DNA of 64,000 bases from Chryseobacterium tructae. GTDB lineage: Bacteria > Bacteroidota > Bacteroidia > Flavobacteriales > Weeksellaceae. Location of the stretch: NCBI RefSeq assembly GCF_030409875.1, contig NZ_JAUFQR010000001.1, forward strand, positions 2,356,001 to 2,420,000, read 5' to 3'. Under the pieces are notes generated by a model. That model saw only the letters and a list, made by a program, of their open reading frames with translations. It was not told where the DNA came from and ran no database searches. This document shows, piece after piece, positions 2,083 to 17,592 of the stretch. A program made the position numbers and the translations under genes. Positions within the stretch are counted from its first letter, which is position 1. Every line of letters begins with the position of its first letter.

Positions 2083-4713
2083 ATGAAAATCGAAAAGATT
2101 CAGGCACTGCGTGGTCCTAACATCTGGAGTATCAGAAGAAAGAAGTTGATACAAATGAGGTTAGACCTTGAAGAAATGGAGAATTATCCTACCAATAAAA
2201 TTGATGGATTCAGGGAAAGAATTGAAAAAATGATCCCTTCATTGATTACCCACAGATGCTCCGAAGGAGTAGAGGGTGGATTTTTCCATAGAGTGGAAAC
2301 AGGAACCTGGATGGGACATGTCATTGAGCATATTGCCTTGGAAATACAGACCTTGGCAGGAATGGATGTTGGATTTGGAAGAACCCGCGAAACAAAGACT
2401 CCGGGGGTATATAATGTAGTATTCAATTATCTTGAAGAAAATGTAGGAATTTATGCTGCTGAGGAAGCAGTAAACATTGCCCAAGCATTAATTGAAGGAA
2501 AAGAGTATGATCTGCATGCTTGTATCCATAAACTGAAAGAGATCAGGGAACGTGTTCGTCTGGGACCTTCTACAGGAAGTATCGTAGAAGAAGCTGTTTC
2601 CAGAAAAATACCATGGATCCGATTGGGAACAAACTCCTTGGTACAGCTTGGATATGGGGTAAATCAGCAGCGTTTTCAGGCTACAATCACAGGAAAAACA
2701 AGTTCTATTGCTGTAGATATTGCCTGTAATAAAGAGCTGACCAAAAGGATGCTTCATGATGCAGCTATTCCGGTACCAATAGGTGATCTGGTGGTAGACG
2801 AAGAAGGCTTACATGAAGTGATCAGAAAAATAGGATATCCTATTGTTTTAAAACCTTTGGACGGGAATCATGGGAAAGGATCCTCTATCAATGTCAATGA
2901 TTGGGAGGCTGCTAAAATAGGATTAGAGCATGCTCAGAAATACTCCCGAAAAGTAATTGTTGAAAAATACATTACAGGATATGATTTCAGAGTATTGGTG
3001 ATTGATAATAAAATGGTAGCTGCGGCAAGAAGAGTTCCTGCTCATATCGTTGGAGATGGGGAACTAAGCATTCAGCAACTGATTGATAAAGAAAATAAAG
3101 ATCCACGCCGCGGTTATGGCCATGAAAATGTCCTTACCGAAATTGAAGTAGATAAAGATACATTAGAATTGCTTGAAAAGCTTCAGTATACTCTGGAAAC
3201 CACTCCGCAAAAAGGAGAAATAGTGTATCTGAAATCAACTGCAAACCTTTCTACTGGAGGAACATCCATAGATGTTACTGATATGGTGCATCCAGAAAAT
3301 ATCACCATGGCAGAGAGAATCTCTAAAATTATCGGGCTGGATGTTTGTGGTATTGATATCATGGCCGAAAACTTAACTCAACCATTAAAAGAAAGCGGTG
3401 GAGCAATCATTGAAGTGAATGCTGCTCCCGGATTCAGAATGCACTTGGCTCCGAGCGAAGGATTGCCTAGAAACGTTGCTGCTCCGGTAGTAGACATGTT
3501 GTATCCACAAGGGAAACCTTTTACGATTCCGATTATTGCTGTTACTGGTACCAATGGAAAGACAACAACAACAAGGTTGATTTCTCATATTGTAAAAAGC
3601 AATGGCTATAGAGTAGGATTTACTACTTCAGACGGGATCTATATTCAAAATACAATGTTGTCAAAAGGAGATACTACAGGGCCTCTTTCAGCAGAGTTTA
3701 TTTTAAAGGATCCTACTGTTGAATTTGCCGTTCTTGAAACAGCAAGAGGCGGGATTCTTCGTTCAGGGTTAGGATTTTCTCAATGTGATATTGGGGTGTT
3801 GACCAATATTGAGGAAGACCATTTGGGAATGAATGATGTTCACAACTTAAAAGATCTTACCAAAGTAAAGCGGGTTGTATTAGACAGTGTAAAGAAAACC
3901 GGCTGGAGTGTATTGAATGCGGATAATGAATATTCCATGAAAATAGTGAAAGACCTTGATTGTAACGTTGCTATTTTTAGTATGAATGAAAATAATCCCC
4001 ATATTGTAAAATTTGCAAAAGAAGGCAGAATCACTTGTGTTTATGAAGAAGGATTTGTAACCATTAAAAAAGGAGATTGGAAAATCAGAATAGGAAAGGC
4101 CAAAGATTTCCCGATTACGATGGAGGGAAAAGCCAGATTCATGATCGAAAATGTTTTGGCAGCTAGTTTAGCCAGCTATCTTCATGGATTTGGGATTGAG
4201 GACATCTCCAATTCTTTAAGAACCTTTATCCCAAGTGCACAGCTTACTCCGGGAAGATTAAATGTTTTTAAGTTTAAAAGCTTTAAAGTACTGATCGACT
4301 TTGCTCATAATCCATCCGGATATGAAGCAATAGAAGATTACCTGAAAAATGTTGAATCTACCAAGAAAATAGGAATTATTTCAGGTGTAGGAGATCGAAG
4401 AGACAATGACATCAGAGAATGCGGAAAAATCGCAGGAAGAATGTTTGATCATATTATCATTCGAAATGAAAAACATCTTCGCGGAAGAACAGAAGAGGAG
4501 ATCAACGGGTTGATTATTGAAGGAATGCAAGCTTCAGGGAAAGATGTCAGTTATGAGATTATTCCTAAAGAAATTGAAGCATTGAAGCACGCTATGGGAA
4601 TGGCAGAAGATGGAACATTCATTACTGCATTAAGTGATGTTATTTCTAATGCTATTGATCTTGTTCAGGAATATCAGGCAAGAGAACTGCTGGAAGATGA
4701 TAAAAATTTGTAA
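2083..4713 (+). CDS. cphA: Cyanophycin synthetase
   Basis: An 876-residue enzyme that extends multi-L-arginyl-poly-L-aspartate using two ATP-dependent ligase sites. The full three-part architecture is visible. There is an N-terminal domain of about 160 residues. An ATP-grasp domain with KPLDGNHGKGSS at 257-268 and a late EVNAAPGFRMH segment adds Asp. A Mur ligase-like domain has P loop GTNGKTTTT from 489, NIEEDHLG near 575 and DFAHNP near 739; it adds Arg. Length matches characterised CphA proteins. Cyanophycinase is divergent and isoaspartyl peptidase lies beyond it, so synthesis and breakdown sit together. A TAnnTTTG promoter is 44 bp upstream and a hairpin follows the stop. The reading frame is intact. 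Confidence 0.96.
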   Translation: MKIEKIQALRGPNIWSIRRKKLIQMRLDLEEMENYPTNKIDGFRERIEKMIPSLITHRCSEGVEGGFFHRVETGTWMGHVIEHIALEIQTLAGMDVGFGRTRETKTPGVYNVVFNYLEENVGIYAAEEAVNIAQALIEGKEYDLHACIHKLKEIRERVRLGPSTGSIVEEAVSRKIPWIRLGTNSLVQLGYGVNQQRFQATITGKTSSIAVDIACNKELTKRMLHDAAIPVPIGDLVVDEEGLHEVIRKIGYPIVLKPLDGNHGKGSSINVNDWEAAKIGLEHAQKYSRKVIVEKYITGYDFRVLVIDNKMVAAARRVPAHIVGDGELSIQQLIDKENKDPRRGYGHENVLTEIEVDKDTLELLEKLQYTLETTPQKGEIVYLKSTANLSTGGTSIDVTDMVHPENITMAERISKIIGLDVCGIDIMAENLTQPLKESGGAIIEVNAAPGFRMHLAPSEGLPRNVAAPVVDMLYPQGKPFTIPIIAVTGTNGKTTTTRLISHIVKSNGYRVGFTTSDGIYIQNTMLSKGDTTGPLSAEFILKDPTVEFAVLETARGGILRSGLGFSQCDIGVLTNIEEDHLGMNDVHNLKDLTKVKRVVLDSVKKTGWSVLNADNEYSMKIVKDLDCNVAIFSMNENNPHIVKFAKEGRITCVYEEGFVTIKKGDWKIRIGKAKDFPITMEGKARFMIENVLAASLASYLHGFGIEDISNSLRTFIPSAQLTPGRLNVFKFKSFKVLIDFAHNPSGYEAIEDYLKNVESTKKIGIISGVGDRRDNDIRECGKIAGRMFDHIIIRNEKHLRGRTEEEINGLIIEGMQASGKDVSYEIIPKEIEALKHAMGMAEDGTFITALSDVISNAIDLVQEYQARELLEDDKNL

Positions 4714-4737
4714 AAATCAAACGATTTGAATAATAAA

Positions 4738-4761
4738 CGGCTGTACTTTGTAGTACGGCCG
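4738..4761 (+). terminator. Probable terminator of cphA
   Basis: A 10-bp stem (CGGCTGTACT / AGTACGGCCG, one G-U pair) begins 25 bp after the cphA stop and is followed by a short T-rich stretch. The tract is weak, so confidence is moderate. Confidence 0.6.
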
Positions 4762-4855
4762 TGTTATTTCTAACGATGTTTTTTATAATCTCTCTCGGAT
4801 TTTACCGATCAATATGCCTCTGCGTGATCTGCAAAATCTGCGTGTGTTAGTATTT

Positions 4856-5344
4856 TTATTTTAGCAATGCCCTTGCTCGTTGAAGTATTTTATCTTGCTC
4901 TCCGGAAAATACTAAGAAATATTGCGTTTGCCAATCCTGTGTTTTTTGAGCTTGCTTACTTTCTGTTTTATCCCAGGCTGGATAAACTCGGATTCCCCGT
5001 TTTCCTGTCTTTTTTCCATCAGATAGAATCCCTTTTCCCGCTAAAATAGATTTAGGGAAAATAAATATCCCTGAAAAGTTATCTTTAAAAGCTGCAACAA
5101 GATAAAAGTCAATATCATCTTTAATATCAAAAGGAGCTGTTTCTCCCTTTTCATTTCTTTTCCAGATTGTTACAAATTGTCCTGTTTTAGTGGGTGTTAT
5201 TTTGGAAATCCGGAACTTGATGTTCAAATTATTTAATCTAAAATTAAAACCAGAATACTCCTTACATTCTAAATCTTCTTCAAGGGCTGAACAATTCATA
5301 CCCAGAGGTTGAAAAAAGTGTTCTTGGAAAAATTTTAGTGACAT
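4856..5344 (-). CDS. MepB family protein
   Basis: A 162-residue cytoplasmic protein resembling the MepB family named after the third gene of the staphylococcal mepRAB locus, whose biochemical role is not established. Recognisable family stretches are the middle strand GQFVTIWKRNEKGETAPF and the C-terminal half with FPKSIL, KRGIRVYPAWD and a final AQKTQDWQTQYF. There is no signal peptide or membrane segment. It is the last gene of the minus-strand series, 29 bp after a small membrane protein. It may only be a passenger of the amidoligase island. Confidence 0.75.
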   Translation of the reverse strand: MSLKFFQEHFFQPLGMNCSALEEDLECKEYSGFNFRLNNLNIKFRISKITPTKTGQFVTIWKRNEKGETAPFDIKDDIDFYLVAAFKDNFSGIFIFPKSILAGKGILSDGKKTGKRGIRVYPAWDKTESKQAQKTQDWQTQYFLVFSGEQDKILQRARALLK

Positions 5345-5373
5345 TACTTTTTATAGGACAATTTAGAAATAAT

Positions 5374-5835
5374 TTATTTTAAACGCTTCCATCTTTTCTC
5401 AATTTTTATCATATCGATTAAATAAAAGCAGAGCGGAATAAGTTCCATTCTGAAAGTAAAGGGATATGATGGTAAAATGAAGGGCCGAACCATTACAGCT
5501 ATACAAATGATCAATCCTAAAATGGCATCTGTTATCGCCGCTTTTGGAGCCCATCGGTATTCAAACCAAAGGCTATAGGCGACGATTCCTTTAAGGATAA
5601 ATAGCCAGCATATAATGATTCCGGTCGCTGAATAGGGATGAGTGGTGCTCAGTCCATATAATGATAGATCTGTATCATCAAGGAAAGCCCCAAAGGATAA
5701 TATTAAACTGGCTATAATTCCTAAAATTAAAAAGAACCAGATGAAAACCTTAATCCATAAAGGGAGTAACTTTCTTCTACGATTGAAATCATTTTGTGAA
5801 TCAAATATATCAGGTACGGGTTCTCCTTTTTTCAT
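5374..5835 (-). CDS. Four-helix membrane protein of unknown function
   Basis: 153 residues. After a charged N terminus (about 22 residues, ending NRRRK) there are four hydrophobic segments near residues 24-48, 70-90, 97-120 and 128-145. The C terminus is basic (KIEKRWKRLK), consistent with cytoplasmic termini. I do not recognise the family. It starts 20 bp after the upstream permuted ATP-grasp-like gene, so the two are probably co-transcribed. A role as exporter or membrane anchor for the island's product is possible but not shown. Confidence 0.7.
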   Translation of the reverse strand: MKKGEPVPDIFDSQNDFNRRRKLLPLWIKVFIWFFLILGIIASLILSFGAFLDDTDLSLYGLSTTHPYSATGIIICWLFILKGIVAYSLWFEYRWAPKAAITDAILGLIICIAVMVRPFILPSYPFTFRMELIPLCFYLIDMIKIEKRWKRLK

Positions 5836-5855
5836 GATCCATCGGTTTTATAGAT

Positions 5856-7040
5856 TTATCCCTCTGCAAAAAAGGCATTAGAACTTCCAATCCAAATAGC
5901 ATCTTTCTTATTGAAATCTACATTTACCATGGCAGCTTTGGTCATTCTTCCCAGATTTTCCAGGAGGATAGGACGCTCTTCATTTTCTTTCCATATATAT
6001 AATAAACGGATTTCTGCTTTTGAAAAATCTCCATTGATGTCTTCAAAAAGCGGTTCATACGTTACCTTTCTCTGTAATATATAATTTTCTTTATCTTCAA
6101 TGGCATCCGTGATCTCTTTGGTTGGGTTTAGATTTACACCGCTTCCAGCAAATGAAAACAAGGGTTTCAATACAAAGCTGTCTAAGTTTTCATGCTGTGG
6201 GAATTCATGTAAGAAATAACTCTTGGGAACAAATTGATGTTTTAATAGAGGTAAAAGAAACTTGGAAATTTTAAAGAACCAATTAGGATGAGTAATCCAC
6301 TTTACATCAACCTCTTCACGAAAATTAAATTCAGTGACCAGATCTGGGATTCTGTCCAATTCATCAAATATAACCCGATTGTAGATCCTTTTGATCTCGA
6401 CAAGTCTGCCATTGTTTTCGTAATAAAGCTTTTTACCTTCCTTCTTTATCTTGGTCAAACATACTGTTTTGATGCCTAATAACTTTTCTGTCAAGGCGAA
6501 ATCAATAGCTGTTTTTTGTTTTTCAGGGAAAATTTCAAGAAGAATTACATTCTCGGGATTTTCATCTCCTACAATCAGTTCCTTCAAATGGTTTTTAAAA
6601 ATCTCATGAGGCATAGGATTTTTGATCTCTGAAATAAAAGGGTACACCTCACAGTATGTTTCTTCATATACTTTCTGAAAAGCATACAAAGAAGGAAAGG
6701 CTTGCAGTTCTATGAGTTGGGGTTCTATTTCCCCATTTCCACTTTTACAAACTCCAAAATCGATGGTGAAAAAATGAGGCTGATTCGTATCATTAGGAAC
6801 TCTGCAATTATCAGGAATAGCTTTTTGAAGCGTTTCAACAGGGAGAGCCTTAATCTGACTAATAATACTTTCGCTGGCATCGAGTAATTTAGCCTCAAAT
6901 TCTTTCGTAAGAAAAATCGGACTTTCTGATACTCTAAAACCCGGTTCTACACCTCCTTTTTGCTGCAAAATATCCTTCAGGTTTTTATATTTTTCATCTG
7001 AAAACTCCTTGTTGAACTGTTTTCTGTATTTTGGGATCAT
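5856..7040 (-). CDS. Probable circularly permuted ATP-grasp protein
   Basis: 394 residues, no signal peptide or membrane segment. The order of nucleotide-binding features looks reversed compared with standard ATP-grasp enzymes. An acidic metal-binding-like strand (DFGVCKSGNGEIEPQLIELQ, around residues 94-113) comes first, and the Lys/Gly-rich ATP-contacting strand (FVLKPLFSFAGSGVNL) comes about 180 residues later. It is followed by YILQRKV and EIRLLYIW, typical of the second half of the fold. That order is known from glutathionylspermidine synthetase-type ligases. I infer an amide ligase acting on a peptide or amino acid; no substrate can be read. It lies downstream of the GATase-like gene after a 212-bp gap with an inverted repeat. 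Confidence 0.6.
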   Translation of the reverse strand: MIPKYRKQFNKEFSDEKYKNLKDILQQKGGVEPGFRVSESPIFLTKEFEAKLLDASESIISQIKALPVETLQKAIPDNCRVPNDTNQPHFFTIDFGVCKSGNGEIEPQLIELQAFPSLYAFQKVYEETYCEVYPFISEIKNPMPHEIFKNHLKELIVGDENPENVILLEIFPEKQKTAIDFALTEKLLGIKTVCLTKIKKEGKKLYYENNGRLVEIKRIYNRVIFDELDRIPDLVTEFNFREEVDVKWITHPNWFFKISKFLLPLLKHQFVPKSYFLHEFPQHENLDSFVLKPLFSFAGSGVNLNPTKEITDAIEDKENYILQRKVTYEPLFEDINGDFSKAEIRLLYIWKENEERPILLENLGRMTKAAMVNVDFNKKDAIWIGSSNAFFAEG

Positions 7041-7095
7041 ATTTTTTCTTTTGTGATGTTAAAAAAATCGAGCAGTAATGCCCGATGTTTTATTA

Positions 7096-7242
7096 GATGG
7101 AAGCCAGTTGCCGGAAGAGGGAAGTTTTTGAAGCTGAGATTTTAAAGCAAGAGCAATTGTACTGATACCTCATTAAAATCAAAAGTTTACCAGAAGTTTA
7201 GTTACTGTTAGAAACTTCCAGCCTCCTTCTTCCAGCTTCCTT
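7096..7242. repeat. Inverted purine/pyrimidine-rich repeat pair (MITE-like intergenic element)
   Basis: The left arm at 7096-7127 (GGAAGCC...GGAAGAGGGAAGTTT) and the right arm at 7211-7242 (AAACTTCCAGCC...CCAGCTTCC) are imperfect inverted copies with about 85 bp between them. The same arm sequences bracket three other gaps in this window (20851-21004, 35508-35845, 56281-56731). Confidence 0.6.
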
Positions 7243-7252
7243 ACTTATTAAG

Positions 7253-8086
7253 TTAAGCCAAAGACTCAGCTTCCTTCAAAATGTTTTTTTTTGCGAACTG
7301 AAGAAATCTCGGAAGAATCTGGTTTCTGGTCAGGATGATTTTATCTTCATCATCTATTCTGTCCATCGTTTCAAGGTATTTCTCCATTCCGAAGTTTTCG
7401 ATCATAGCTTCTCTGTTTTTGTCATCCTTAAGGTTTTCAATTAAAGCCTGAGGGCTTGCTTCCGGATGAAACTGAGTTCCAAAGATCTCATCAGAAAAAC
7501 GAACCGCCATTACAGCTCTTTCCAGATTGATATGTGGACGGAATTTTTCAATGGCCATAACCGTCATTCCTAATTCTTCGAAACGATCATGATCAGGTTC
7601 AATGAATTGATAAGCTCTGGAATCTACCGCATAAAAAGGATCCTGAAGATTTTTAAATAAAAATTCATCTCTGCCTTCTCTTGTTTTGTGTACGGGCATC
7701 ACTCCAAAAGAATAGGATTTTCTTTTACAGATATTTCCTAATTTCCAGTGAATACTCGCCAGTTGGAATGAATGACAAATCAGGAAAAGATACTTTTTAT
7801 CTTCATTGTATTTATTATGTTCTAAAACGGAATCTAAAAAATGAGCAAACCTACTTTCCCACTCAAAACCTTCACGGTGTGGAGTCCCTGGTCCGCCTGA
7901 AGAAATAAAAATATCAAAGTCTCCAATCTCCGGCATTTCATCTTTAAACCTCACATCAAATGTCTTGATAATTACATTTTCTTCAGAGTTCTGCTGAAAC
8001 GTTTCAGAAATTTCTTTAATGTTTCTAAAGCCTTGATTGACGTGATTATTGTTCATGTCCAGCAGAGCAATTCGAATATTTTTCAT
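7253..8086 (-). CDS. Class I glutamine amidotransferase-like protein
   Basis: 277 residues with the class I GATase (flavodoxin-like) fold: SSGGPGTP at 62-69, a nucleophile elbow LICHSFQLA with Cys104, and the dyad FHPEA with His207 and Glu209. All three catalytic residues are present. The elbow reads C-H-S-F-Q instead of the usual C-x-G-x-Q, so the oxyanion geometry may differ. There is no fused synthetase domain, so it would deliver ammonia to a separate enzyme or hydrolyse a gamma-glutamyl amide. It lies 33 bp after the GCS2-type ligase gene, with which it is probably co-transcribed, and this pairing supports a role in processing glutamyl or carboxyl amides. Confidence 0.85.
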   Translation of the reverse strand: MKNIRIALLDMNNNHVNQGFRNIKEISETFQQNSEENVIIKTFDVRFKDEMPEIGDFDIFISSGGPGTPHREGFEWESRFAHFLDSVLEHNKYNEDKKYLFLICHSFQLASIHWKLGNICKRKSYSFGVMPVHKTREGRDEFLFKNLQDPFYAVDSRAYQFIEPDHDRFEELGMTVMAIEKFRPHINLERAVMAVRFSDEIFGTQFHPEASPQALIENLKDDKNREAMIENFGMEKYLETMDRIDDEDKIILTRNQILPRFLQFAKKNILKEAESLA

Positions 8087-8119
8087 TACATCATATTTTT
8101 TGTAAAGTTACCAAAAATA

Positions 8120-9241
8120 TTATGAAGCAGTCTCGCCATGTGTTATGCCATACTCTGTTTCCGAAATCATATAATCCACAACCTTAGTAAGATCGCCGGT
8201 TTCCTTGAATATCTGGAGTTGTCTGTCTGCGCCGGTTCCGTTTTCCAAAATTTTCCATGCGTATTCTACCTCATGACGGCATCCTAAATCGTCTACTACA
8301 TCATCTATAAACTCCAGTAATTCTTTTAATAAGATAGGATAAGGAACAGATTCTTCTTTTCCAAAGTCAATCAGATGAGATTCGATGCCACTTTTTGAAG
8401 CACGCCATTTATTTTCGTTCAACAAGAGTCTTCTGTAGCTTCTGAAGCTTAGATTTTGTTGGTGAAGTTTATAAATTTTGGCCACTAAACTCTGCATAAT
8501 GGCTGCAAGACATACTGTTTCATCAATTCTTAATGGCATATCACAGATCCTGAACTCAATGGTAGGGTAGAACGGGTGAACCCTTAAGTCCCACCATATT
8601 TTCTTGGCATTGTCAATGGTTCCTGTTTTTACCAGAAGATCAACATAGCTGTCAAATTCAGCTAAAGAGTTGAAGTAACTTGGAATACCGGTTCTCGGAA
8701 ATTTAACGAAAATTTCCTGTCTGTAGGATTTAAACCCTGTATATCTTCCAATCCAGAATGGAGAATTGGTAGATAAAGCATAAACGTGAGGCAGAAAATA
8801 ACGCATTACATTCTGAATTCTTACTCCTTCTTCACGATTAGGGATTCCAATATGTACGTGAAGCCCAAAAATCAGATTTTCACGGGCAACATCGCCCATA
8901 TCATCTACGATTTTGATGTATCTTTCCCCTTGGGTGATACTATTGTCAGACCAATGAGAAAAAGGATGGGTTCCGCCTCCGGAAACACGTAATCCCTGTT
9001 CGTGGGCAGTATTGATCAAATGTCTTCTCAAATTCGTTAATTCTGCTCTGGCTTCCTGGATATTTTGACAGATTCCAGTCTCCATCTCAATCATGGATTC
9101 GTGCATTTCGTGCTTTAGATTTTCACTTAATACCGCCTTTCCACCTTCGATGATTTTTGATACATGAGAAATCAGATCCCTGCTTTCAACATCAATAATC
9201 TGATATTCTTCTTCGATTCCAATAGTAAACTGATGATGCAT
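8120..9241 (-). CDS. Carboxylate-amine ligase, GCS2/YbdK family
   Basis: 373 residues of the glutamate-cysteine ligase type 2 superfamily, which forms an amide between a carboxylate and an amine using ATP. Visible landmarks are the first strand FTIGIEEEY (5-13) with metal-binding Glu residues, GLHVHIG at 126-132, the substrate-site segment TIEFRICD and the C-terminal RHEVEYAWKILENGTGADRQ. I chose the ATG at 9239-9241. A longer reading frame beginning at a TTG (9307) would overlap the preceding gene and add a sequence not found in the family. It sits 32 bp after an ATP-grasp gene and 33 bp before the GATase-like gene. Not necessarily a true gamma-glutamylcysteine synthetase; many YbdK-type members have unknown substrates. 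Confidence 0.88.
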   Translation of the reverse strand: MHHQFTIGIEEEYQIIDVESRDLISHVSKIIEGGKAVLSENLKHEMHESMIEMETGICQNIQEARAELTNLRRHLINTAHEQGLRVSGGGTHPFSHWSDNSITQGERYIKIVDDMGDVARENLIFGLHVHIGIPNREEGVRIQNVMRYFLPHVYALSTNSPFWIGRYTGFKSYRQEIFVKFPRTGIPSYFNSLAEFDSYVDLLVKTGTIDNAKKIWWDLRVHPFYPTIEFRICDMPLRIDETVCLAAIMQSLVAKIYKLHQQNLSFRSYRRLLLNENKWRASKSGIESHLIDFGKEESVPYPILLKELLEFIDDVVDDLGCRHEVEYAWKILENGTGADRQLQIFKETGDLTKVVDYMISETEYGITHGETAS

Positions 9242-9273
9242 TGTCTTGTGTTTTTTTATTCTTTTTTTCAAAC

Positions 9274-10227
9274 TTATTTTATGGAATCTTTCACAAAAGT
9301 TCCCCAAGTGATATTAGGTTTTCCCGGAACATATTCCTTGGCTTTTTCAATAGCCAGTTTTGCAGCATGTTCTATAATCCATGCAAAATTCTCTTCTCCT
9401 ACAGAATTTCTGTCTGCATCCGGAGCTGGATTGCAGAAGTCGATCGCATAAGGAATACCATCTCTTACAGCAAATTCTACGGTATTGAAATCATATCCTA
9501 AAGCTTCATTCATTTTAATTGTATAATCATGAATGGTTTTCAATAATTTTTCAAGCTCTTTACCTTGTGTCTGGTGGGTTGTGGCATATCTCAGGTGATG
9601 CGGATTTCTAGGTTCATAAGGCATAATATGTACATATTTTCTGCCCAGGCAATAAACCCTGTAATAATCATCAAAGACAATTTCCTCCTGAACCATCATG
9701 ACCAGTTGTTCTGTTTCTCCAAGCTTATTCCAAAGATCATCCGGGTTTTCTACTCTGTAAACGCTTTTCCAGCCACCACCATCGTGAGGTTTCATATAAG
9801 CCGGGAATCCTACATAATTGAAAATATATTCCCAGTCGTGAGGAAATTTAAGGTTTCTGAATGAAGTTTCCGAAGTATCGGTTGGTCTCTCATGAGAGGG
9901 AAGCAATACAGTTTTCGGTAACGGAATTCCTAATTTGCTCATCAGTGCATTATTAAAAAACTTTTCATCAGCACTCCACCAAAACGGGTTATTGATTACA
10001 TAAGTGCCATTAAGTGCGGCATTTTTCAGATATGCTCTGTAAAAGGGAACATCCTGCGAAATTCTGTCGATGATGACGGCATAACCATAATCTGCACCTT
10101 GTTCAAGTTTATCAATGGTAACAGGCTCGGCCACAATATCTCCGCCACCCAGTTCATTGACTTTGTCTATAAATGCCCAGGGAAATGTGTCCTCCATACC
10201 GAATAGAATTCCTACTTTTTTTGTCAT
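9274..10227 (-). CDS. ATP-grasp ligase of unknown substrate
   Basis: 317 residues. The fold is visible from a Rossmann-like N-terminal domain (KKVGILFGME), a middle ATP-binding loop YMKPHDGGGWKSVYRV with Lys146, a segment VQEEIVF for the adenine-contacting linker, and C-terminal metal-binding strands TVEFAV and AIDFCNPAPD. Such enzymes activate a carboxylate as acyl phosphate and attack it with an amine. It is the first gene of a tight three-gene group (ATP-grasp, GCS2, GATase) with 32-33 bp spacers, so a two-ligase pathway is likely. The 299-bp gap upstream suggests its own promoter. Substrate cannot be inferred. Confidence 0.85.
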   Translation of the reverse strand: MTKKVGILFGMEDTFPWAFIDKVNELGGGDIVAEPVTIDKLEQGADYGYAVIIDRISQDVPFYRAYLKNAALNGTYVINNPFWWSADEKFFNNALMSKLGIPLPKTVLLPSHERPTDTSETSFRNLKFPHDWEYIFNYVGFPAYMKPHDGGGWKSVYRVENPDDLWNKLGETEQLVMMVQEEIVFDDYYRVYCLGRKYVHIMPYEPRNPHHLRYATTHQTQGKELEKLLKTIHDYTIKMNEALGYDFNTVEFAVRDGIPYAIDFCNPAPDADRNSVGEENFAWIIEHAAKLAIEKAKEYVPGKPNITWGTFVKDSIK

Positions 10228-10486
10228 AATTTTTGTTTTTAATGGGTGTATATTTTTTCTATTTTATCTTTTTTTTGGATGAAAAAAGGTTTTCAGTCCA
10301 GATTTAGCTCGTGTGATTTCTTTGATTACCTCATCAAAGATCCTTTGAATTTTCGACCACTCCGGCTGAGGGAGATATCATGTCCTCAATTGTGATATTG
10401 GCAGAAACTGAAAATTTTAAATTTTCAAAAGACTTAATGCACACTCACACACAGGTAGTAGTAGCTTAAAATAACCTAAGTGTTAA

Positions 10487-10523
10487 AAACTTTAGTGCCT
10501 AAAAATAAAGGCTAAGTTTAAAA
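10487..10523 (-). terminator. Probable terminator after the island esterase
   Basis: On the minus strand AAACTTAGCCT and AGGCACTAAAGTTT form a bulged stem around an AT loop, followed by a T run. It begins four bases beyond the esterase stop. The rest of the 10228-10526 gap shows no gene; it should carry the promoter of the ATP-grasp/GCS2/GATase group, but I found no clear TAnnTTTG element. Confidence 0.55.
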
Positions 10524-10526
10524 ACT

Positions 10527-11239
10527 CTAAGAAAAATAAGCTCCAATAAATGTTGGAAAAACAAGTCTCCACAATGGCCAGTCGTGTCCAATCCATTTTC
10601 TTTCATCATACCAGAAATCAATGCCTTTTACCCTTAAAATTTCAGCCATTTCAATATTCTTGTCCTTACAGATATCCTGATCGGAAGTACTCAATACAAT
10701 ATGCATGTGTTTGTATTTCCAGGCTTCATCATTTCTTACAAACTCCCTTGGACAGTTGAAATAACCAGGTCATCAGAATAACCATTCATGAAGTTTCTTA
10801 CACTGAAAGCTCCTGATAGACAAAATAAATGAGAAACCACATCTGGAAATCTGAAAGCGAAATTAGCGGCGTGATAGCCCCCAAAACTGGCTCCTGCCAC
10901 TGCTACTCGATGAGTTTTATGAAGCTTTTGAATGTAGGGCACAAATTCCAAAATCAAAAACTGGACATAGCGTTCATAGTTTTTTATTCTCTGCTGTGGA
11001 GATATTTTTTCATCATAAAAACTCCAACTATCAATGGTCTGAATATTATAAAGCTTTACTTTTCCCTGTTCTACGAACCAATTGATGCTTCCGTTAAGAT
11101 GAAAATCATGGTTCTGGGTGTATTGTCCTTGAGAAGTCGGGAACATAATGATAGGGTGTCCATAATTTCCGGTTACTTCTACTTTAAGGCTTGTTCCCAG
11201 TATATTGGAATAGTAGTCTGTATGTTCTATATGAGGCAT
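10527..11239 (-). CDS. Alpha/beta-hydrolase esterase, frame broken near 10763
   Basis: The uninterrupted part is 167 residues and ends early. Restoring one base in the run at 10763-10764 (minus-strand GGTTATTTC to GGTTTATTTC) gives a 237-residue protein ending at the stop 10527-10529. It has the esterase-like fold: nucleophile elbow GASFGG with Ser118, then after the break the STSDQD segment (candidate acid) and WIGHDWPLW (candidate His). Without the second half the triad would be incomplete. No signal peptide, so cytoplasmic. It lies 28 bp after the 92-residue gene in the island and could hydrolyse an ester or amide of the pathway product. Other genes here show similar run-length errors, so I regard the break as a sequencing artefact, though a real pseudogene cannot be excluded. 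Confidence 0.75.
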
Positions 11240-11267
11240 TTTTTCTTATTTGGTTTTAATATGGTCA

Positions 11268-11546
11268 TTATAATCTTTTGAGAAATTCAATTCCTCCGAG
11301 TTTGTCATGTTCCAGAATATCCAGTACCAAAGTTCCTAACTCAGGATGTTCCAGTATGATATTTTCTTTAAAGATCCATTGGGATCCGCGCTGATTGGCA
11401 TCGGTAGAGTCAACGAATCTGTAATAGGTTCTGTTTTCCCATTTTCCAGTATTAATCTTGTCTAAATTATGAATTAAAACAGGCCTTTCTGGCAGATTTA
11501 ATTTTATAAAATCAATACTGCTTTGAATATCAGTTTGCCTATTCAT
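11268..11546 (-). CDS. Small conserved-looking hypothetical protein in the amidoligase island
   Basis: 92 residues, soluble, acidic and hydrophilic overall, with no signal peptide and no motif I recognise. It begins two bases after the stop of the ATP-grasp gene upstream and is followed 28 bp later by the esterase, so it is surely in the same transcript. The tight coupling suggests a subunit or accessory factor of the neighbouring ligase, which is inference only. Stretches such as GKWENRTYYRFVDSTDANQRG and a C-terminal ILEHDKLGGIEFLKRL would be useful search seeds. Confidence 0.7.
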   Translation of the reverse strand: MNRQTDIQSSIDFIKLNLPERPVLIHNLDKINTGKWENRTYYRFVDSTDANQRGSQWIFKENIILEHPELGTLVLDILEHDKLGGIEFLKRL

Positions 11547-11548
11547 TT

Positions 11549-12763
11549 TTAAGACATTAATTTACTGCTTTTTGGAGGGAGAATATTGAGCATTTCTGCA
11601 TTGATTTTTTCTGCAGCACTGTCCAATCTTTCCTCTATCACAGACGCTTCACTGGATTTGTAAACAATCCCAACATGATAGTCTATGGGGAGAAATTTTA
11701 CAACTTCTTCACATTCAAATTTGCTGTAATCGGGTTCTTTATCTTTAATAAGAGCGACAATAAGTCCGGAGTAATAGCCTGTAGGAGGAGAGACACTATA
11801 GTTTTGGTTTCTTAAAAGAGCATCTTCGATTTTAGCCCATTCCCGCCAGATATTGACACCACTTGAAGCCTCTACCAAATCAGGAATATGTGCACCACCT
11901 ACTCTTGAAGAGGTTTCCAGGAAGTACCATTTTCCATCTTCTTTTCCACGAATAAATTCTGTATGGGTAGCTCCGTTGAGAAGTCCGAAATTGGAAAGTA
12001 CTCTGGAATTAATTTCTTCCAATGCTTTGAATTCATCAGAGTATCTTCCTAATGTTTTAGATCTGAAAACACCACCCTCATGAGAAACCTGCATAGGAGG
12101 AGCAAGATATTTTGATGCAGAAGTAAATACAATTTCTTTATTGAATGTAAGGCTGTCTACATGATATACATCTCCGGGTTTAAAGCTTTCCAGCAAGAAA
12201 AGATGGCGCTCTTCTCCAAGGATATCCAACGCTTCGTGAAGCTGTTCTTTAGTCATGATCTTTTTGATTCCTGATGCAGAAGCTTCCGATCGGGGTTTAA
12301 GTACCCAAGGTGCAGGAACTTTATCCACAAACTCATTCACCGTATCATCATTGAAAACAGCTGTGAATTCCGGAACATTAATCCCTGAATCTTTTGCTTT
12401 TTGACGCATGGCGAGTTTATCTCTGAAATAGCGATGGGTAGTTTGGCCCATTCCCGGAATACGAAAAGTTTCCCGGATCAGGGCAGCTTTTTCCACGTCA
12501 TAGTCATCAAGAGCTACAACAGCATCCACTTTTCTGGTTTTCATCAGGTGTGAAAATCCCTGAATCAGATGCTCAAGGTTCCAGACAGACGGTTTAATTT
12601 CAGGCATATAAAATACCTCATCAATGGCATGCCAGGGCCAGTTTTTTTCTTTAAGATTTTCTGATGTTACTAAGATGATTTTATTACCGAGCTTCTTCAT
12701 TTCATCCATGAAATCATAGCCCTTGTAATAGCACGAAATACATACTATAATTTTCTCCTCCAT
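11549..12763 (-). CDS. ATP-grasp carboxylate-amine ligase (dipeptide ligase-like)
   Basis: 404 residues, first gene of the operon that continues with the 92-residue protein and the esterase. Typical ATP-grasp order is visible: a Rossmann-like N-terminal domain with ALDDYD near 84-89, a central domain with FRDKLAMRQKAKDSGI, the ATP-binding strand WVLKPRSEASASGI with Lys156, the hinge FLLESFKPGDVYHVD, and the metal-binding strand FLETSSRVGGAH with Glu283 and Arg287. This arrangement resembles amino-acid ligases of the bacilysin/carnosine synthase type, which join two amino acids. A TATTTTTG promoter element is 30 bp upstream. Substrates cannot be deduced. Confidence 0.85.
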   Translation of the reverse strand: MEEKIIVCISCYYKGYDFMDEMKKLGNKIILVTSENLKEKNWPWHAIDEVFYMPEIKPSVWNLEHLIQGFSHLMKTRKVDAVVALDDYDVEKAALIRETFRIPGMGQTTHRYFRDKLAMRQKAKDSGINVPEFTAVFNDDTVNEFVDKVPAPWVLKPRSEASASGIKKIMTKEQLHEALDILGEERHLFLLESFKPGDVYHVDSLTFNKEIVFTSASKYLAPPMQVSHEGGVFRSKTLGRYSDEFKALEEINSRVLSNFGLLNGATHTEFIRGKEDGKWYFLETSSRVGGAHIPDLVEASSGVNIWREWAKIEDALLRNQNYSVSPPTGYYSGLIVALIKDKEPDYSKFECEEVVKFLPIDYHVGIVYKSSEASVIEERLDSAAEKINAEMLNILPPKSSKLMS

Positions 12764-12792
12764 ATAATGTTTTTTAAGTTTTAGTGAATTAT

Positions 12793-12800
12793 CAAAAATA
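12793..12800 (-). promoter_or_regulatory. -7 promoter element (TATTTTTG) of the ATP-grasp/esterase operon
   Basis: A TAnnTTTG match on the minus strand, about 30 bp upstream of the ATP-grasp start at 12763. It is the clearest promoter within the amidoligase island. Confidence 0.55.
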
Positions 12801-12903
12801 AAAGCAATTCTTTATTATTTGATTAATATCAAAAATTAAAATATGATATACTTTCCTAAATCACTAATCAAGTATACAGAGAATTTTTGTAATAAACTAA
12901 TTT

Positions 12904-14319
12904 TTAGTGATAATTTTCGATTAAATCCGACAATAGTTGAACACCAAAACCAGTAGCTGCTTTTTCCTTAGCATATCCTACATTTCCAAAGGCAACTCCT
13001 GCGATGTCTAAATGTGCCCATTTAGGGTGGTTCTCAGTGAATTGCTCTAGAAATTTAGCGGCAATAATACAGTCTCCAACAGGTTTCATAGAGATGTTTT
13101 TTAAGTCGGCTACATCAGACTGAATATCGTCTTTCCAAATATCCCATAAAGGAAGATTCCAAAGCCTTTGATTGGTTTGATCTCCGGTTTTTATTAAAAG
13201 ATTTTTCAATTCTTCATTATTAGAAAACATTGCTCCACAAGTATCGCCAAACATTCTTACTGAACTTCCTGTTAAAGTTGCGAGATCAATAAGGAAATCT
13301 GTTTTATAGTTTTTTGCTAAATAAGAAAGTCCGTCTGCAAGAATCAATCGGCCTTCTGCATCAGTATCAATAACTTCAATCGTTTTTCCATTGTAAGCTG
13401 TAATAACATCACTTGGGAGTAACGCTTTTTCAGAAACAGCGTTGTCTGTGATAGGAAGGATCGCGGTGATATTAACAGGAAGTTTCATTTCTGCAGCATA
13501 GATCAAGGCGCCTAGAACAGCTGTTGCACCACCCATATCAGATTTCATATAGTGCAGATTGGCAGAACCCTTGATGGAAATTCCTCCTGTATCAAAAAGA
13601 ACACACTTCCCAACAAGTCCAAATGTTTTGGCATTTTTCACCGTGGTTTTATATTCCAAAATAGTAAATGCTGCATCATAGGCACTTCCTTGATTAACGG
13701 CAAGATAAGCCCCCAGTCCAAGCTCTTCACATTTCTTTCGATTGAAAACGGTATACTTTAATTCATATTTTTTGGCCATATTTTTAAGATATGAGCTAAA
13801 AATATCCGGTTTTTTGAGATTAGCAGGTTTGTTTAGCCAATCCTGACAGGCAATTTGTCCATTGCTTAAGGCTTCAGCTTTTTGGCTAATGTGATCCAGT
13901 CTTTTCTGGCTTAAATTCTCAAAATGCAGTTCGAATTTTGCATTCCAGAACGGGTGATTTTTTTCAAAAGGATAATTATAAGTTCCGATGAGGAGTCCCT
14001 TTACAAATTCTTCAAACTGTTTTTCACTAAGGAAATCGGCCAATAGTAAAGTTGAAACAGCTTGTAGTTTTTCTTTCTGGGATTGTGAAAATTTTACTCC
14101 AATCTGCTGGATTTCGAAGTTTTGAAAAGTAGATTTTCCCAGTCCGATAAAGTAAGTGATTCCTTCCTCATGGGCATTGATGAAAATCTCATACTTTTTT
14201 CCCGTGAAGAATGTTGAAATATTTTTATTGAAATTCTTGTTGGTCTTTGCCCATTCTTCCTCTGTGAATAAATGGAAAACCTGAGTGTAATTGTTATTTT
14301 TTTTGTTGATTAGTTTCAT
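12904..14319 (-). CDS. Leucyl aminopeptidase family protein (M17)
   Basis: 471 residues, the usual M17 length. The C-terminal catalytic domain has the family metal-binding and catalytic signatures: VGKCVLFDTGGISIKG and MKSDMGGA, and the diagnostic IDTDAEGRLILADGL (family NTDAEGR, with D for N). The N-terminal half is divergent, as is usual. The enzyme removes N-terminal residues from peptides, or splits dipeptides, with two metal ions in a hexamer. It is expected to be cytoplasmic. It ends 104 bp before position 12800 and follows the second esterase by four bases, suggesting an esterase-aminopeptidase operon. Placed among peptide ligases, it may recycle their products, or it may be a general peptidase. 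Confidence 0.9.
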   Translation of the reverse strand: MKLINKKNNNYTQVFHLFTEEEWAKTNKNFNKNISTFFTGKKYEIFINAHEEGITYFIGLGKSTFQNFEIQQIGVKFSQSQKEKLQAVSTLLLADFLSEKQFEEFVKGLLIGTYNYPFEKNHPFWNAKFELHFENLSQKRLDHISQKAEALSNGQIACQDWLNKPANLKKPDIFSSYLKNMAKKYELKYTVFNRKKCEELGLGAYLAVNQGSAYDAAFTILEYKTTVKNAKTFGLVGKCVLFDTGGISIKGSANLHYMKSDMGGATAVLGALIYAAEMKLPVNITAILPITDNAVSEKALLPSDVITAYNGKTIEVIDTDAEGRLILADGLSYLAKNYKTDFLIDLATLTGSSVRMFGDTCGAMFSNNEELKNLLIKTGDQTNQRLWNLPLWDIWKDDIQSDVADLKNISMKPVGDCIIAAKFLEQFTENHPKWAHLDIAGVAFGNVGYAKEKAATGFGVQLLSDLIENYH

Positions 14320-14323
14320 AAAT

Positions 14324-15448
14324 CTAGTTCTTAATGCTTTGTTGTTGTGGTTTTACTTCGACAGGATTTTCTGTGTTGTCATAGAACAGCCATTCAATAG
14401 CTCTTGGGAATTCCTGAGACCAATAAAATTCATTGTGTGTTCCTTCAGGATTAATGTTGGTTCTGAATTCAAAATCGAAAAGGTTCTTTTTCTCCCATCT
14501 TTTCAAATATTCCTCGAAAATATGGATTCTTTTTACCATTTTGGAACCTTCCTGGCCACCGCCATATAAATATATTTTTGTTTTAAAAGGGACTCTGAAG
14601 TTCATCATTGGGAAGTTATTGTTTGGTTCTACCCAAAGAGAAGGCGAGAAAATCAATAATTTGGAGTAAACTTCAGGATAAAGAAAGCCACTGTAGATAC
14701 TGATTAATGCTCCTAGTGAACTGCCACCGATTCCGGTGTTATCTCTGTCTTTTTTGGTGCGGTAATTTGCATCTACATAAGGTTTTAAAGTATCAGCAAT
14801 AAAGCGGATGTATTTTTTTCCTTCAGAACCATTCGCAACATTATCATTATCGAAGATATACTCTTTAATTCTTTCTTCACTTCCATGTTCAATGGCAATC
14901 ACAATGATGTCTCCACGCCCATATTCTGCAAGGATAGAAAGCTTTTTATCAATTTCCCAATTTCCGAAACCACTGCCTTCATTGAACAGATTTTGAGCAT
15001 CCTGAAGATATAAAACAGGATAATCTTTATCTGAGGTATGATAGTCATAGGGTAATACAGCCCATATCTTACGATAGCGATCCAGTTGTGGAATATAGAA
15101 TTTTTCAGAAATCACTTCAGCAATAGGGAAGAACTCTTCTTTGAAAGGCCCCCAGTTTAATCTCCATTTTTCTACTTGATCAGAAATTGCTTGTAGAGAC
15201 TTTTTAACCTTTCGGTTAGGAGTGATATTTCCGTATCGGTCAAGTTCAACATTTTCCCAACCTCCTTTGGTGAATTTATATTCTATTTCATCCGAAAGCG
15301 ATTGATTATCAATTTCTATGAAATAATTCCCAGGATTTAATTCCTTAAGTTGATAATTGTAGTCTTTAGGATTCCAATTATTGAAATTTCCGGTGATGAA
15401 TACCGGTCTGTCGTCTTTTTCATCAGTATAAAGTTCAAACCTCATCAT
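14324..15448 (-). CDS. Esterase D-family hydrolase with N-terminal carbohydrate-binding-like domain
   Basis: 374 residues. The N-terminal part (about 10-75) reads like an E-set/CBM48 domain, with VFITGNFNNWNP matching the glycogen-binding beta-sandwich style. It is followed by an esterase D-type alpha/beta hydrolase domain with elbow GGSSLG (Ser244), an upstream YPVLYLQDAQN strand, and a late EGTHNEFYW carrying the probable catalytic His. There is no signal peptide. Two ATGs are adjacent (15446-15448 and 15443-15445); I keep the first. It is divergent from glgB, 197 bp away, and GlgB carries a comparable N-terminal module, so binding or processing of alpha-glucan is possible. It also lies four bases from the M17 gene, linking it to the peptide island. 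Confidence 0.8.
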   Translation of the reverse strand: MMRFELYTDEKDDRPVFITGNFNNWNPKDYNYQLKELNPGNYFIEIDNQSLSDEIEYKFTKGGWENVELDRYGNITPNRKVKKSLQAISDQVEKWRLNWGPFKEEFFPIAEVISEKFYIPQLDRYRKIWAVLPYDYHTSDKDYPVLYLQDAQNLFNEGSGFGNWEIDKKLSILAEYGRGDIIVIAIEHGSEERIKEYIFDNDNVANGSEGKKYIRFIADTLKPYVDANYRTKKDRDNTGIGGSSLGALISIYSGFLYPEVYSKLLIFSPSLWVEPNNNFPMMNFRVPFKTKIYLYGGGQEGSKMVKRIHIFEEYLKRWEKKNLFDFEFRTNINPEGTHNEFYWSQEFPRAIEWLFYDNTENPVEVKPQQQSIKN

Positions 15449-15645
15449 AAGTGTTTAATAAATATTAGCTTGCTAAATTTATAAAAAAGATTGTTTTAGA
15501 ATCATAAAAAAGTGAATTAAAAAATGATATATTTGATAGGAAACGAAAGAAGAAAGCTAACTTGACAATTATTTGATGAATAATTAATCGCTAATGTCAG
15601 TATTTTTCGTAGTTTCAAGCAAAATATAAATACAAACTGATCTTG

Positions 15646-17592
15646 ATGAATTCTGTTAAAACCTATACGCTTTTCACCGATCATGATGTATATCTTTTTA
15701 AAGAAGGTAGACATTATAAGCTGTATGGTAAATTTGGAGCGCATTCTGTAAAGAAAGATGATGTGGCGGGAGTTTATTTTTCAGTTTGGGCACCTCATGC
15801 AAAAAAAGTATCTGTAATAGGAGATTTTAATAACTGGAATCATAAAGATCATATTCTGTTTCCAAGATGGGACGGTTCCGGGATCTGGGAAGGTTTTATT
15901 GAAGAATTGCCCTGGGGTACTTTATATAAATATGCTGTGGAAACAGCAAGAGGAGAGATCTTAGAAAAAAGTGACCCCTTTGCTTTAAGTTGGGAGCAGA
16001 ATATTCAGGCTGCTTCATTGGTTTCTACAACCTGGTATGAGTGGAATGACAAAGAATGGATGGAAAATCGCCGCGAGAAAAATAATTTGAATGCCCCCAT
16101 ATCTGTGTATGAACTGCATTTAGGTTCATGGGTAAGGGAGAATGATGATCCTGATCGTTTTTTGAATTATCGCGATATCGCCGAAAAACTCGTTCCCTAT
16201 ATAAAAGAAATGGGTTTTACCCACGTAGAGTTTATGCCCGTTATGGAATATCCTTACGATCCTAGCTGGGGATATCAGATCACGGGATTTTATGCCGCTA
16301 CATCACGCTTTGGTTCTCCTCAGGATCTGATGTTCCTGATCGATGAACTTCATAAAAATGATATAGGTGTTATCCTGGATTGGGTGCCTTCACATTTTCC
16401 AGGTGATGCCAATGGACTTCATCGTTTTGACGGTTCTTACCTGTATGAACATGAAGACCCAAGAAAAGGTTTTCACCCCGACTGGAAATCATATATCTTT
16501 AATTATGGAAGAAATGAAGTGAAATCTTTCCTCATTTCCAATGCGATGTTTTGGTTGGATCGTTATCATGCAGATGGACTTCGTGTAGATGCAGTTACTT
16601 CAATGCTTCATCTGGATTATTCAAGGAATGAAGGCGAATGGGAACCCAATATATATGGTGGAAACGTCAATCTAGAAGCTAAGGCCTTTTTACAGGAATT
16701 CAATACGGCTGTTTACAAGGAATTTGGAAATAGTATTATGACAATTGCTGAAGAAAGTTCAGATTTTCCGATGCTGACTAAGCCTGTTCATGAAGGCGGT
16801 GTAGGTTTTGGAATGAAATGGATGATGGGCTGGATGCACGATACGTTGGATTATTTTAAGGAAGATTTTGTCAATAGAAGATTCCACCATCATAAACTTA
16901 CGTTTGCTTCCATGTATATGTATAACGAAAATTATATGATGCCTTTGTCACATGATGAAGTAGTGCATGGGAAAGCAAGTCTTATTTATAAAATGAAGGG
17001 TGATGAGTGGCAGAAATTTGCCAATCTTCGTACCTTGTATGTCTATATGTATACCCATCCGGGAGCCAAACTCCTTTTTATGGGGGATGAATTTGGGCAA
17101 ACCAGTGAATGGAATTTTAAGCAAAGCCTGGATTGGCATCTTTTGAAATATCCTGTGCATAAAGGATTACAGAATGTAGTAAAGGAGCTTAATCATTTAT
17201 ACAGATCTGAATCAGCTTTGTATGAAAATCAGTTTGATAAACATGGTTTTGAATGGATAGAAGCTGACGATCTTGAAAATTCAGTATACGTTTATCTCAG
17301 AAAAGGAAAAAGAAAAGATGATGTTTTGATGACGGTATTGAATCTGGCACCAAAAGTTTTGGATTACAAAATAAACATTCCTAGCGGAACCCATTGGGAA
17401 GTGATTTTTAATTCCGATGATGAAGAATATAGCGGAAGTGGAGTGATTTCTGAGATTTTGGAAGAGAAATATGAAGATGATGCAGATTATCATAAGTTTA
17501 TGATCATCAAGTTGCCTCCTCTGGCAGGTGTTGTTTTAAGACAGCAAAAAGATAAAAAGTATAAATTACACAGAATTAAACACAAAAGATAA
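15646..17592 (+). CDS. glgB: 1,4-alpha-glucan branching enzyme
   Basis: 648 residues from the ATG at 15646; a TTG directly before it is not needed. It makes the alpha-1,6 branches of glycogen. An N-terminal CBM48 domain (VSVIGDFNNWNH near 60-70) precedes a GH13 barrel with the nucleophile Asp315 in DGLRVDAV, the acid/base Glu369 in TIAEESSDFP, and the transition-state Asp437 in SHDEVVHGK. The insert YDPSWGYQITGFYA is typical of branching enzymes. Length fits the short-N-terminus GlgB type. It is the first gene of a glycogen operon: glgA begins after a two-base gap. A weak TATTTTTC element at 15601 may be the promoter. Confidence 0.96.
   Translation: MNSVKTYTLFTDHDVYLFKEGRHYKLYGKFGAHSVKKDDVAGVYFSVWAPHAKKVSVIGDFNNWNHKDHILFPRWDGSGIWEGFIEELPWGTLYKYAVETARGEILEKSDPFALSWEQNIQAASLVSTTWYEWNDKEWMENRREKNNLNAPISVYELHLGSWVRENDDPDRFLNYRDIAEKLVPYIKEMGFTHVEFMPVMEYPYDPSWGYQITGFYAATSRFGSPQDLMFLIDELHKNDIGVILDWVPSHFPGDANGLHRFDGSYLYEHEDPRKGFHPDWKSYIFNYGRNEVKSFLISNAMFWLDRYHADGLRVDAVTSMLHLDYSRNEGEWEPNIYGGNVNLEAKAFLQEFNTAVYKEFGNSIMTIAEESSDFPMLTKPVHEGGVGFGMKWMMGWMHDTLDYFKEDFVNRRFHHHKLTFASMYMYNENYMMPLSHDEVVHGKASLIYKMKGDEWQKFANLRTLYVYMYTHPGAKLLFMGDEFGQTSEWNFKQSLDWHLLKYPVHKGLQNVVKELNHLYRSESALYENQFDKHGFEWIEADDLENSVYVYLRKGKRKDDVLMTVLNLAPKVLDYKINIPSGTHWEVIFNSDDEEYSGSGVISEILEEKYEDDADYHKFMIIKLPPLAGVVLRQQKDKKYKLHRIKHKR

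Follow-up and report, generated by a model that had tools for sequence, protein, structure and literature searches.

Why do several amide-forming enzymes, two esterases, and an aminopeptidase lie side by side on one strand of a Chryseobacterium tructae contig? In the window, the 64,000-nucleotide stretch of that contig analyzed here, the open reading frame (ORF) list gives eleven minus-strand genes running from 15448 down to 4856, flanked by a cyanophycin synthetase gene (2083–4713, plus strand) on one side and glycogen genes (15643 onward, plus strand) on the other. The gaps between them measure 2 to 33 nt at 7 of the 10 junctions; the larger ones are 140 nt after an M17 peptidase gene, 508 nt after a broken esterase ORF, and 212 nt between the genes for a glutamine amidotransferase (GATase)-like protein and a permuted ATP-grasp protein. 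A sequence-only reading of this DNA had placed the genes here, on this strand and mostly separated by short gaps, as we also find, and had proposed that ligases and hydrolases act jointly in the synthesis of a small peptide-like product. This is the best reading of the conserved gene set: the region probably encodes a route, shared by many Bacteroidota, to a small peptide-like compound of non-ribosomal origin.

The evidence centers on five minus-strand core genes. These encode, in order of transcription, a PF00756-type alpha/beta hydrolase (EST1, 10736–11239, cut to 167 aa here), a RimK/LysX-type ATP-grasp ligase of 317 aa (AG9274, 9274–10227), a GCS2/YbdK carboxylate-amine ligase (GCS2, 8120–9241), a class I GATase-like protein of 277 aa (GAT7253, 7253–8086), and a permuted ATP-grasp protein of 394 aa of the GspS/YgiC/eukaryotic glutathione synthetase kind (pAG5856, 5856–7040). 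Starting from an alignment of AG9274 relatives, we took the best 80 of 546 confirmed loci from species genomes, with a range that covers Chryseobacterium, Kaistella, Elizabethkingia, and Cloacibacterium; Maribacter, Polaribacter, and Winogradskyella; and Dyadobacter, Spirosoma, Cyclobacteriaceae, and Saprospiraceae. We use "Weeksellaceae group" as our own label for 32 of these loci (L031–L061 and L063) and refer to the other 48 as outside it. The order esterase–AG9274–GCS2–GATase–pAG on a single strand was found in 70 of the 80 loci and in 58 of the 61 that are at least 18 kb long (27/27 in the Weeksellaceae group, 31/34 outside), so that gene order in relatives, whose loss had been named as grounds for abandoning the proposal, is conserved. 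The three exceptions among the long loci are two from Runella, whose stretches hold neither GATase nor pAG, and one from Portibacter that lacks GCS2.

Presence and absence across genomes point the same way. AG9274 occurs in 34 of 36 genomes of the window's genus, the window genome included, and in 108 of 296 sampled Bacteroidota genomes, about a third, representing 77 of 139 genera. With thresholds of E 1e-60 for GCS2, 1e-20 for EST1, 1e-40 for a second ATP-grasp ligase, AG11549, and 1e-3 for AG9274, pAG, and GATase, the same 296 genomes gave matches to pAG in 93, GATase in 77, GCS2 in 103, EST1 in 125, and AG11549 in 66; weak matches to GATase (G105, G222, G243, G269, G312, G321, and G332) and to pAG (G320) were dropped before overlaps were counted. 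Few occurrences fall outside AG9274 genomes (pAG 3, GATase 1, GCS2 12, EST1 20), AG11549 has none there (66/66 with AG9274), and the five core families are found together in 50 genomes and all six in 29. In chosen examples the partners are far from one another: AG9274 and pAG are separated by 0.55 to 3.2 Mb on single contigs of G088, G098, G114, and G323, and AG9274 and AG11549 by 0.98 to 2.8 Mb in seven genomes, although the circular distance may be shorter. The co-occurrence p-values (3e-19 to 5e-55) are too small because the genomes are related, but the retention of unlinked partners would be hard to explain without a functional tie. Taken with the shared order and orientation of the five core genes, this goes beyond chance. 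No plasmid copies of AG9274 or GAT7253 were found at E 1e-5.

What kinds of enzymes are these? The family labels given earlier to GCS2, the GATase, the M17 peptidase, the ligase at 11549, and the esterases all agree with Pfam and NCBIfam. GCS2 is a member of the YbdK/PRK13515 family (PF04107, E 7.6e-65; equivalog NF010039, 534.9 bits versus a cut-off of 371), its relatives in the Protein Data Bank (PDB) are the YbdK-type structures 1tt4 and 1r8g, and its start is most likely the ATG at 9241. Four genomes (G092, G119, G213, and G233) match the esterase, AG9274, GATase, and pAG but have no GCS2 at E 1e-60, and locus L106 also lacks it; in these cases GCS2 is either dispensable or replaced. Of the two ligases that had been called ordinary ATP-grasps, AG11549 is one by family match, while AG9274 has no Pfam match at E 0.001 and is RimK/LysX-like by its predicted model, whose nearest fold is RimK, and by a match to rimK_fam (E 9e-9, 35.1 bits) that stays under the family cut-off of 143.4. 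At most, then, AG9274 can be said to work in a RimK-like way. A single-sequence PDB search with it returned no match and its profile gave weak, unspecific ATP-grasp matches (best E 0.012); GshB (1gsa) is not among the matches listed, an absence that is not evidence.

The assignment of pAG5856 as a permuted ATP-grasp holds up. Its predicted model is of the YgiC/GspS/eukaryotic glutathione synthetase kind, with the GspS synthetase fold over the whole protein, and aligns end to end with the CP-ATP-grasp structure 3n6x. A permuted arrangement fits, as LysX and other canonical ATP-grasps align their first residues only from about model residue 160. Residues D94 and E111 are invariant in 33/33 relatives, with the register set by pattern only. 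In PMC12568646, R-x-D and E-x-N are named as residues of the Cp1B phosphorylation site; in that same pattern-based register all 33 relatives depart from both motifs, A, Q, T, C, or G standing where the Arg is expected and Gln113 where the Asn is. The clusters of deep lineages carry a CP_ATPgrasp_2-type protein in place of pAG5856, scoring above the Pfam cut-off in L135 and short of it in L129, and the two are mutually exclusive. Kinship between the two rests on fold, because hhalign gives a probability of only 2.5 percent while 3n6x matches both; their mutual exclusion would fit isofunctional proteins.

The hydrolase-like members are less specific as to reaction. GAT7253 carries a class I glutamine amidotransferase domain (PF00117, 37.1 bits versus a cut-off of 22.8) with a Cys104-His207-Glu209 triad that is invariant in 33/33 relatives; PF00117 is matched by all 33 and the homoserine succinyltransferase family (HTS) by 4, and a single-sequence PDB search found no match. 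From its sequence it could equally hydrolyze glutamine for a partner synthetase, act as a gamma-glutamyl hydrolase, or be an acyltransferase relative. One named relative comes from Candidatus Sericytochromatia, the systematic searches having covered Bacteroidota. The esterase families proposed earlier were recovered, but the one said to reach 10527 is not a single ORF: the EST1 frame ends at 10736, giving 167 aa, and homology goes on in another frame to about 10527, with the nucleophile Ser ahead of the frameshift and the conserved Asp and His behind it. Of the 107 loci with a match, 104 carry EST1 whole in a single frame; the other two defective loci are cut short (L060) or at a contig end (L099), and the break in the window genome is either an assembly error or a strain-specific loss.

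Upstream of the core lies a second module, also on the minus strand, consisting of AG11549 (11549–12763, 404 aa), an M17 leucyl-aminopeptidase-type peptidase (12904–14319; PF00883, E 4.8e-104), and a second esterase (14324–15448). AG11549 is related in sequence to the L-amino-acid ligases: its profile matches 4wd3, which we take to be RizA (E 8.5e-23), and 3vot (1.8e-12), and five ATP-grasp residues are conserved in 15/15. It was found near the core in 31 of 32 Weeksellaceae-group loci versus 6 of 48 outside, where it is always downstream of the core and in 4/6 on the other strand. Three of these outside loci have it directly behind pAG (L101, L103, and L109, of which L101 and L109 are Saprospiraceae) and the remainder 1.8 to 5 kb away; in the deep-lineage loci L128 and L166 it lies about 1 kb behind the core. 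Of the 47 AG11549 loci, 34 have the M17 gene within 1.5 kb of AG11549 in the same orientation, and 31 of those 34 are in the Weeksellaceae group. A second aminopeptidase family appears at the pathway in one locus, where an M29 metallopeptidase sits between pAG and GCS2 (L142:7351–8367, minus strand). The second esterase matches PF00756 over residues 121–301 (E 7.3e-23), its first 120 or so residues have no Pfam family match, and it was found in 27/80 loci. Just upstream of the core, 34 of the 48 outside loci carry a divergent second esterase (PF00756, enterochelin-esterase-like; e.g., L062:8323–9141, minus strand).

The remaining minus-strand genes are lineage-limited passengers: a 92-aa protein without a Pfam or NCBIfam match (11268–11546), a small membrane protein by our own reading of the sequence (5374–5835), and, downstream of the cluster, a MepB-like protein of 162 aa (PF08877; 4856–5344). 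At E 1e-6 they recur in just 4, 2, and 3 of the 80 loci, respectively, and the first two, previously counted as members, have to be dropped. The flanks are restricted as well. ORF clustering places CphA close to the cluster in 13 loci and tblastn in 14, all of them in the Weeksellaceae group; outside it, CphA and GlgB clusters were near the core in 0/48 loci (34 of them at least 18 kb long), and tblastn with GlgB gave two matches, in L096 and L102, that cover a third of the protein at 25–27 percent. Because these flanks are lineage-specific, we reject the suggestion that the neighboring cyanophycin genes indicate the substrates. Overall, the conserved pathway is real, and the idea behind the sequence-only reading stands along with its permuted ATP-grasp; the cyanophycin link falls, as do the boundaries, since of the proposed eight-family unit the five-gene core is firm and the whole is looser. 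In 15 loci with 7 genus labels, the core is followed at a median of 54 nt by a gene for a class III aminotransferase (ArgD/putrescine group; e.g., L082:14513–15730, plus strand); the protein falls below the cut-off of every family among the matches listed, which reveals no substrate. No known RNA family reached the gathering threshold in window positions 4000–16000 or in L062, L072, L098, and L103.

Could such a gene set have another purpose? RimK adds amino acids to ribosomal protein S6, and LysX and ArgX act on LysW. Because RimK and LysX work on proteins, another possible explanation is a tagging system in which the RimK- and GspS-type ligases attach amino acids or an amine to a protein or carrier protein and the GATase, esterases, and M17 peptidase take this tag off. 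We consider this unlikely, as the neighbor families in at least 4 genus labels include no recurrent gene for a small carrier or target (ORFs of at least 70 aa were called), the 92-aa protein is too rare to be one, and YbdK, L-amino-acid-ligase, and GspS-type enzymes generally have small-molecule acceptors. The scarcity of AG11549 near the core outside the Weeksellaceae group, its downstream and often opposite-strand placement there, and the 42 of 108 AG9274 genomes that lack it would suit two separate pathways that are neighbors mainly in Weeksellaceae, the five-gene core in one and an AG11549–M17–esterase module that makes and degrades a dipeptide in the other. This division seems rather improbable, given that AG11549 never occurs without AG9274 and lies right behind the core in two Saprospiraceae loci and close behind it in the deep lineages.

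A grouping of unrelated housekeeping amino-acid enzymes by chance or local synteny in a storage-compound region is, in our view, highly improbable: the cyanophycin and glycogen flanks in Chryseobacterium would favor it, but loci from Flavobacteriales, Cytophagales, and Saprospiraceae share the gene order while their flanks change, and unlinked partners are retained together. Checked by co-occurrence alone, the pathway proposal thus survives this challenge. A role for the product as the main low-molecular-weight thiol, replacing bacillithiol, is disfavored, as BshC, the one bacillithiol-route gene tested, is over the cut-off in 42/42 genomes (23 with and 19 without AG9274). A polyamine link via nspC found no support (2/42 genomes over the cut-off, 16/42 with any match), a result that covers this one polyamine route and is not decisive.

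Among known systems, those for glutathione, glutathionylspermidine, and trypanothione (GCS, GSH synthetase, GspS, YgiC/YjfC) likewise pair a GCS2-type enzyme with a ligase of the GspS/GSH synthetase fold, here accompanied by predicted amide hydrolases. The present cluster differs from them in its YbdK-type GCS2, its RimK/LysX-like second ATP-grasp, and the BshC background of its hosts; and pAG has, in the pattern-based register, neither the R-x-D Arg nor the E-x-N Asn and leaves no space for a fused amidase domain, its length being that of YgiC. AG11549 belongs to the same sequence neighborhood as the L-amino-acid ligases RizA, BL00235 (3vot), and BacD but, unlike them, is linked to an M17 peptidase and an esterase and confined to genomes with AG9274. 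The Anbu operon is given in PMC5666114 as Anbu, ATP-grasp, alpha-E, and transglutaminase. It resembles the deep-lineage clusters in their CP_ATPgrasp_2-type protein, while the cluster here has a GATase, an esterase, and a RimK-type ligase instead; a Pfam scan of ten window proteins found no Anbu, alpha-E, or transglutaminase family, the neighbors in divergent loci not having been scanned exhaustively. Among the literature matches listed, no title or abstract opening assigns a product to this gene set. Iyer et al. (2009) reportedly predicted amidoligase neighborhoods that are probably of the same general class, and may already show this one, which lowers any claim to novelty.

How might the proposed peptide pathway proceed? 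AG11549 would join two L-amino acids or add one, and GCS2 and AG9274 would add further amino acids, at least one of them probably glutamate-like. The enzyme pAG5856, which shares its fold with peptide-spermidine ligases and glutathione synthetases, may make the last amide on the peptide carboxylate and so close the chain, the acceptor being either an amine or an amino acid. In all, three or four amide bonds would be formed one after another, with the GATase acting as an ammonia-delivering amidase or a gamma-glutamyl-type amide hydrolase and the esterases and M17 peptidase trimming, unmasking, or recycling the product. More specifically, and only tentatively, the product could be a widely conserved conjugate of a peptide with an amine, functionally parallel to glutathionylspermidine or trypanothione but made without glutathione by RimK-, YbdK-, L-amino-acid-ligase-, and GspS-type ligases, with a single CP-ATP-grasp doing the last step in deep lineages. 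The natural exchange of one ligase for another constrains one step of the pathway, and four ligase families with defined partners make the whole directly testable. For Bacteroidota, the finding points to an old pathway common to many members of the phylum; with so wide a distribution, its product, perhaps amine-ended, is probably a cofactor, a stress metabolite, or a storage or signal peptide.

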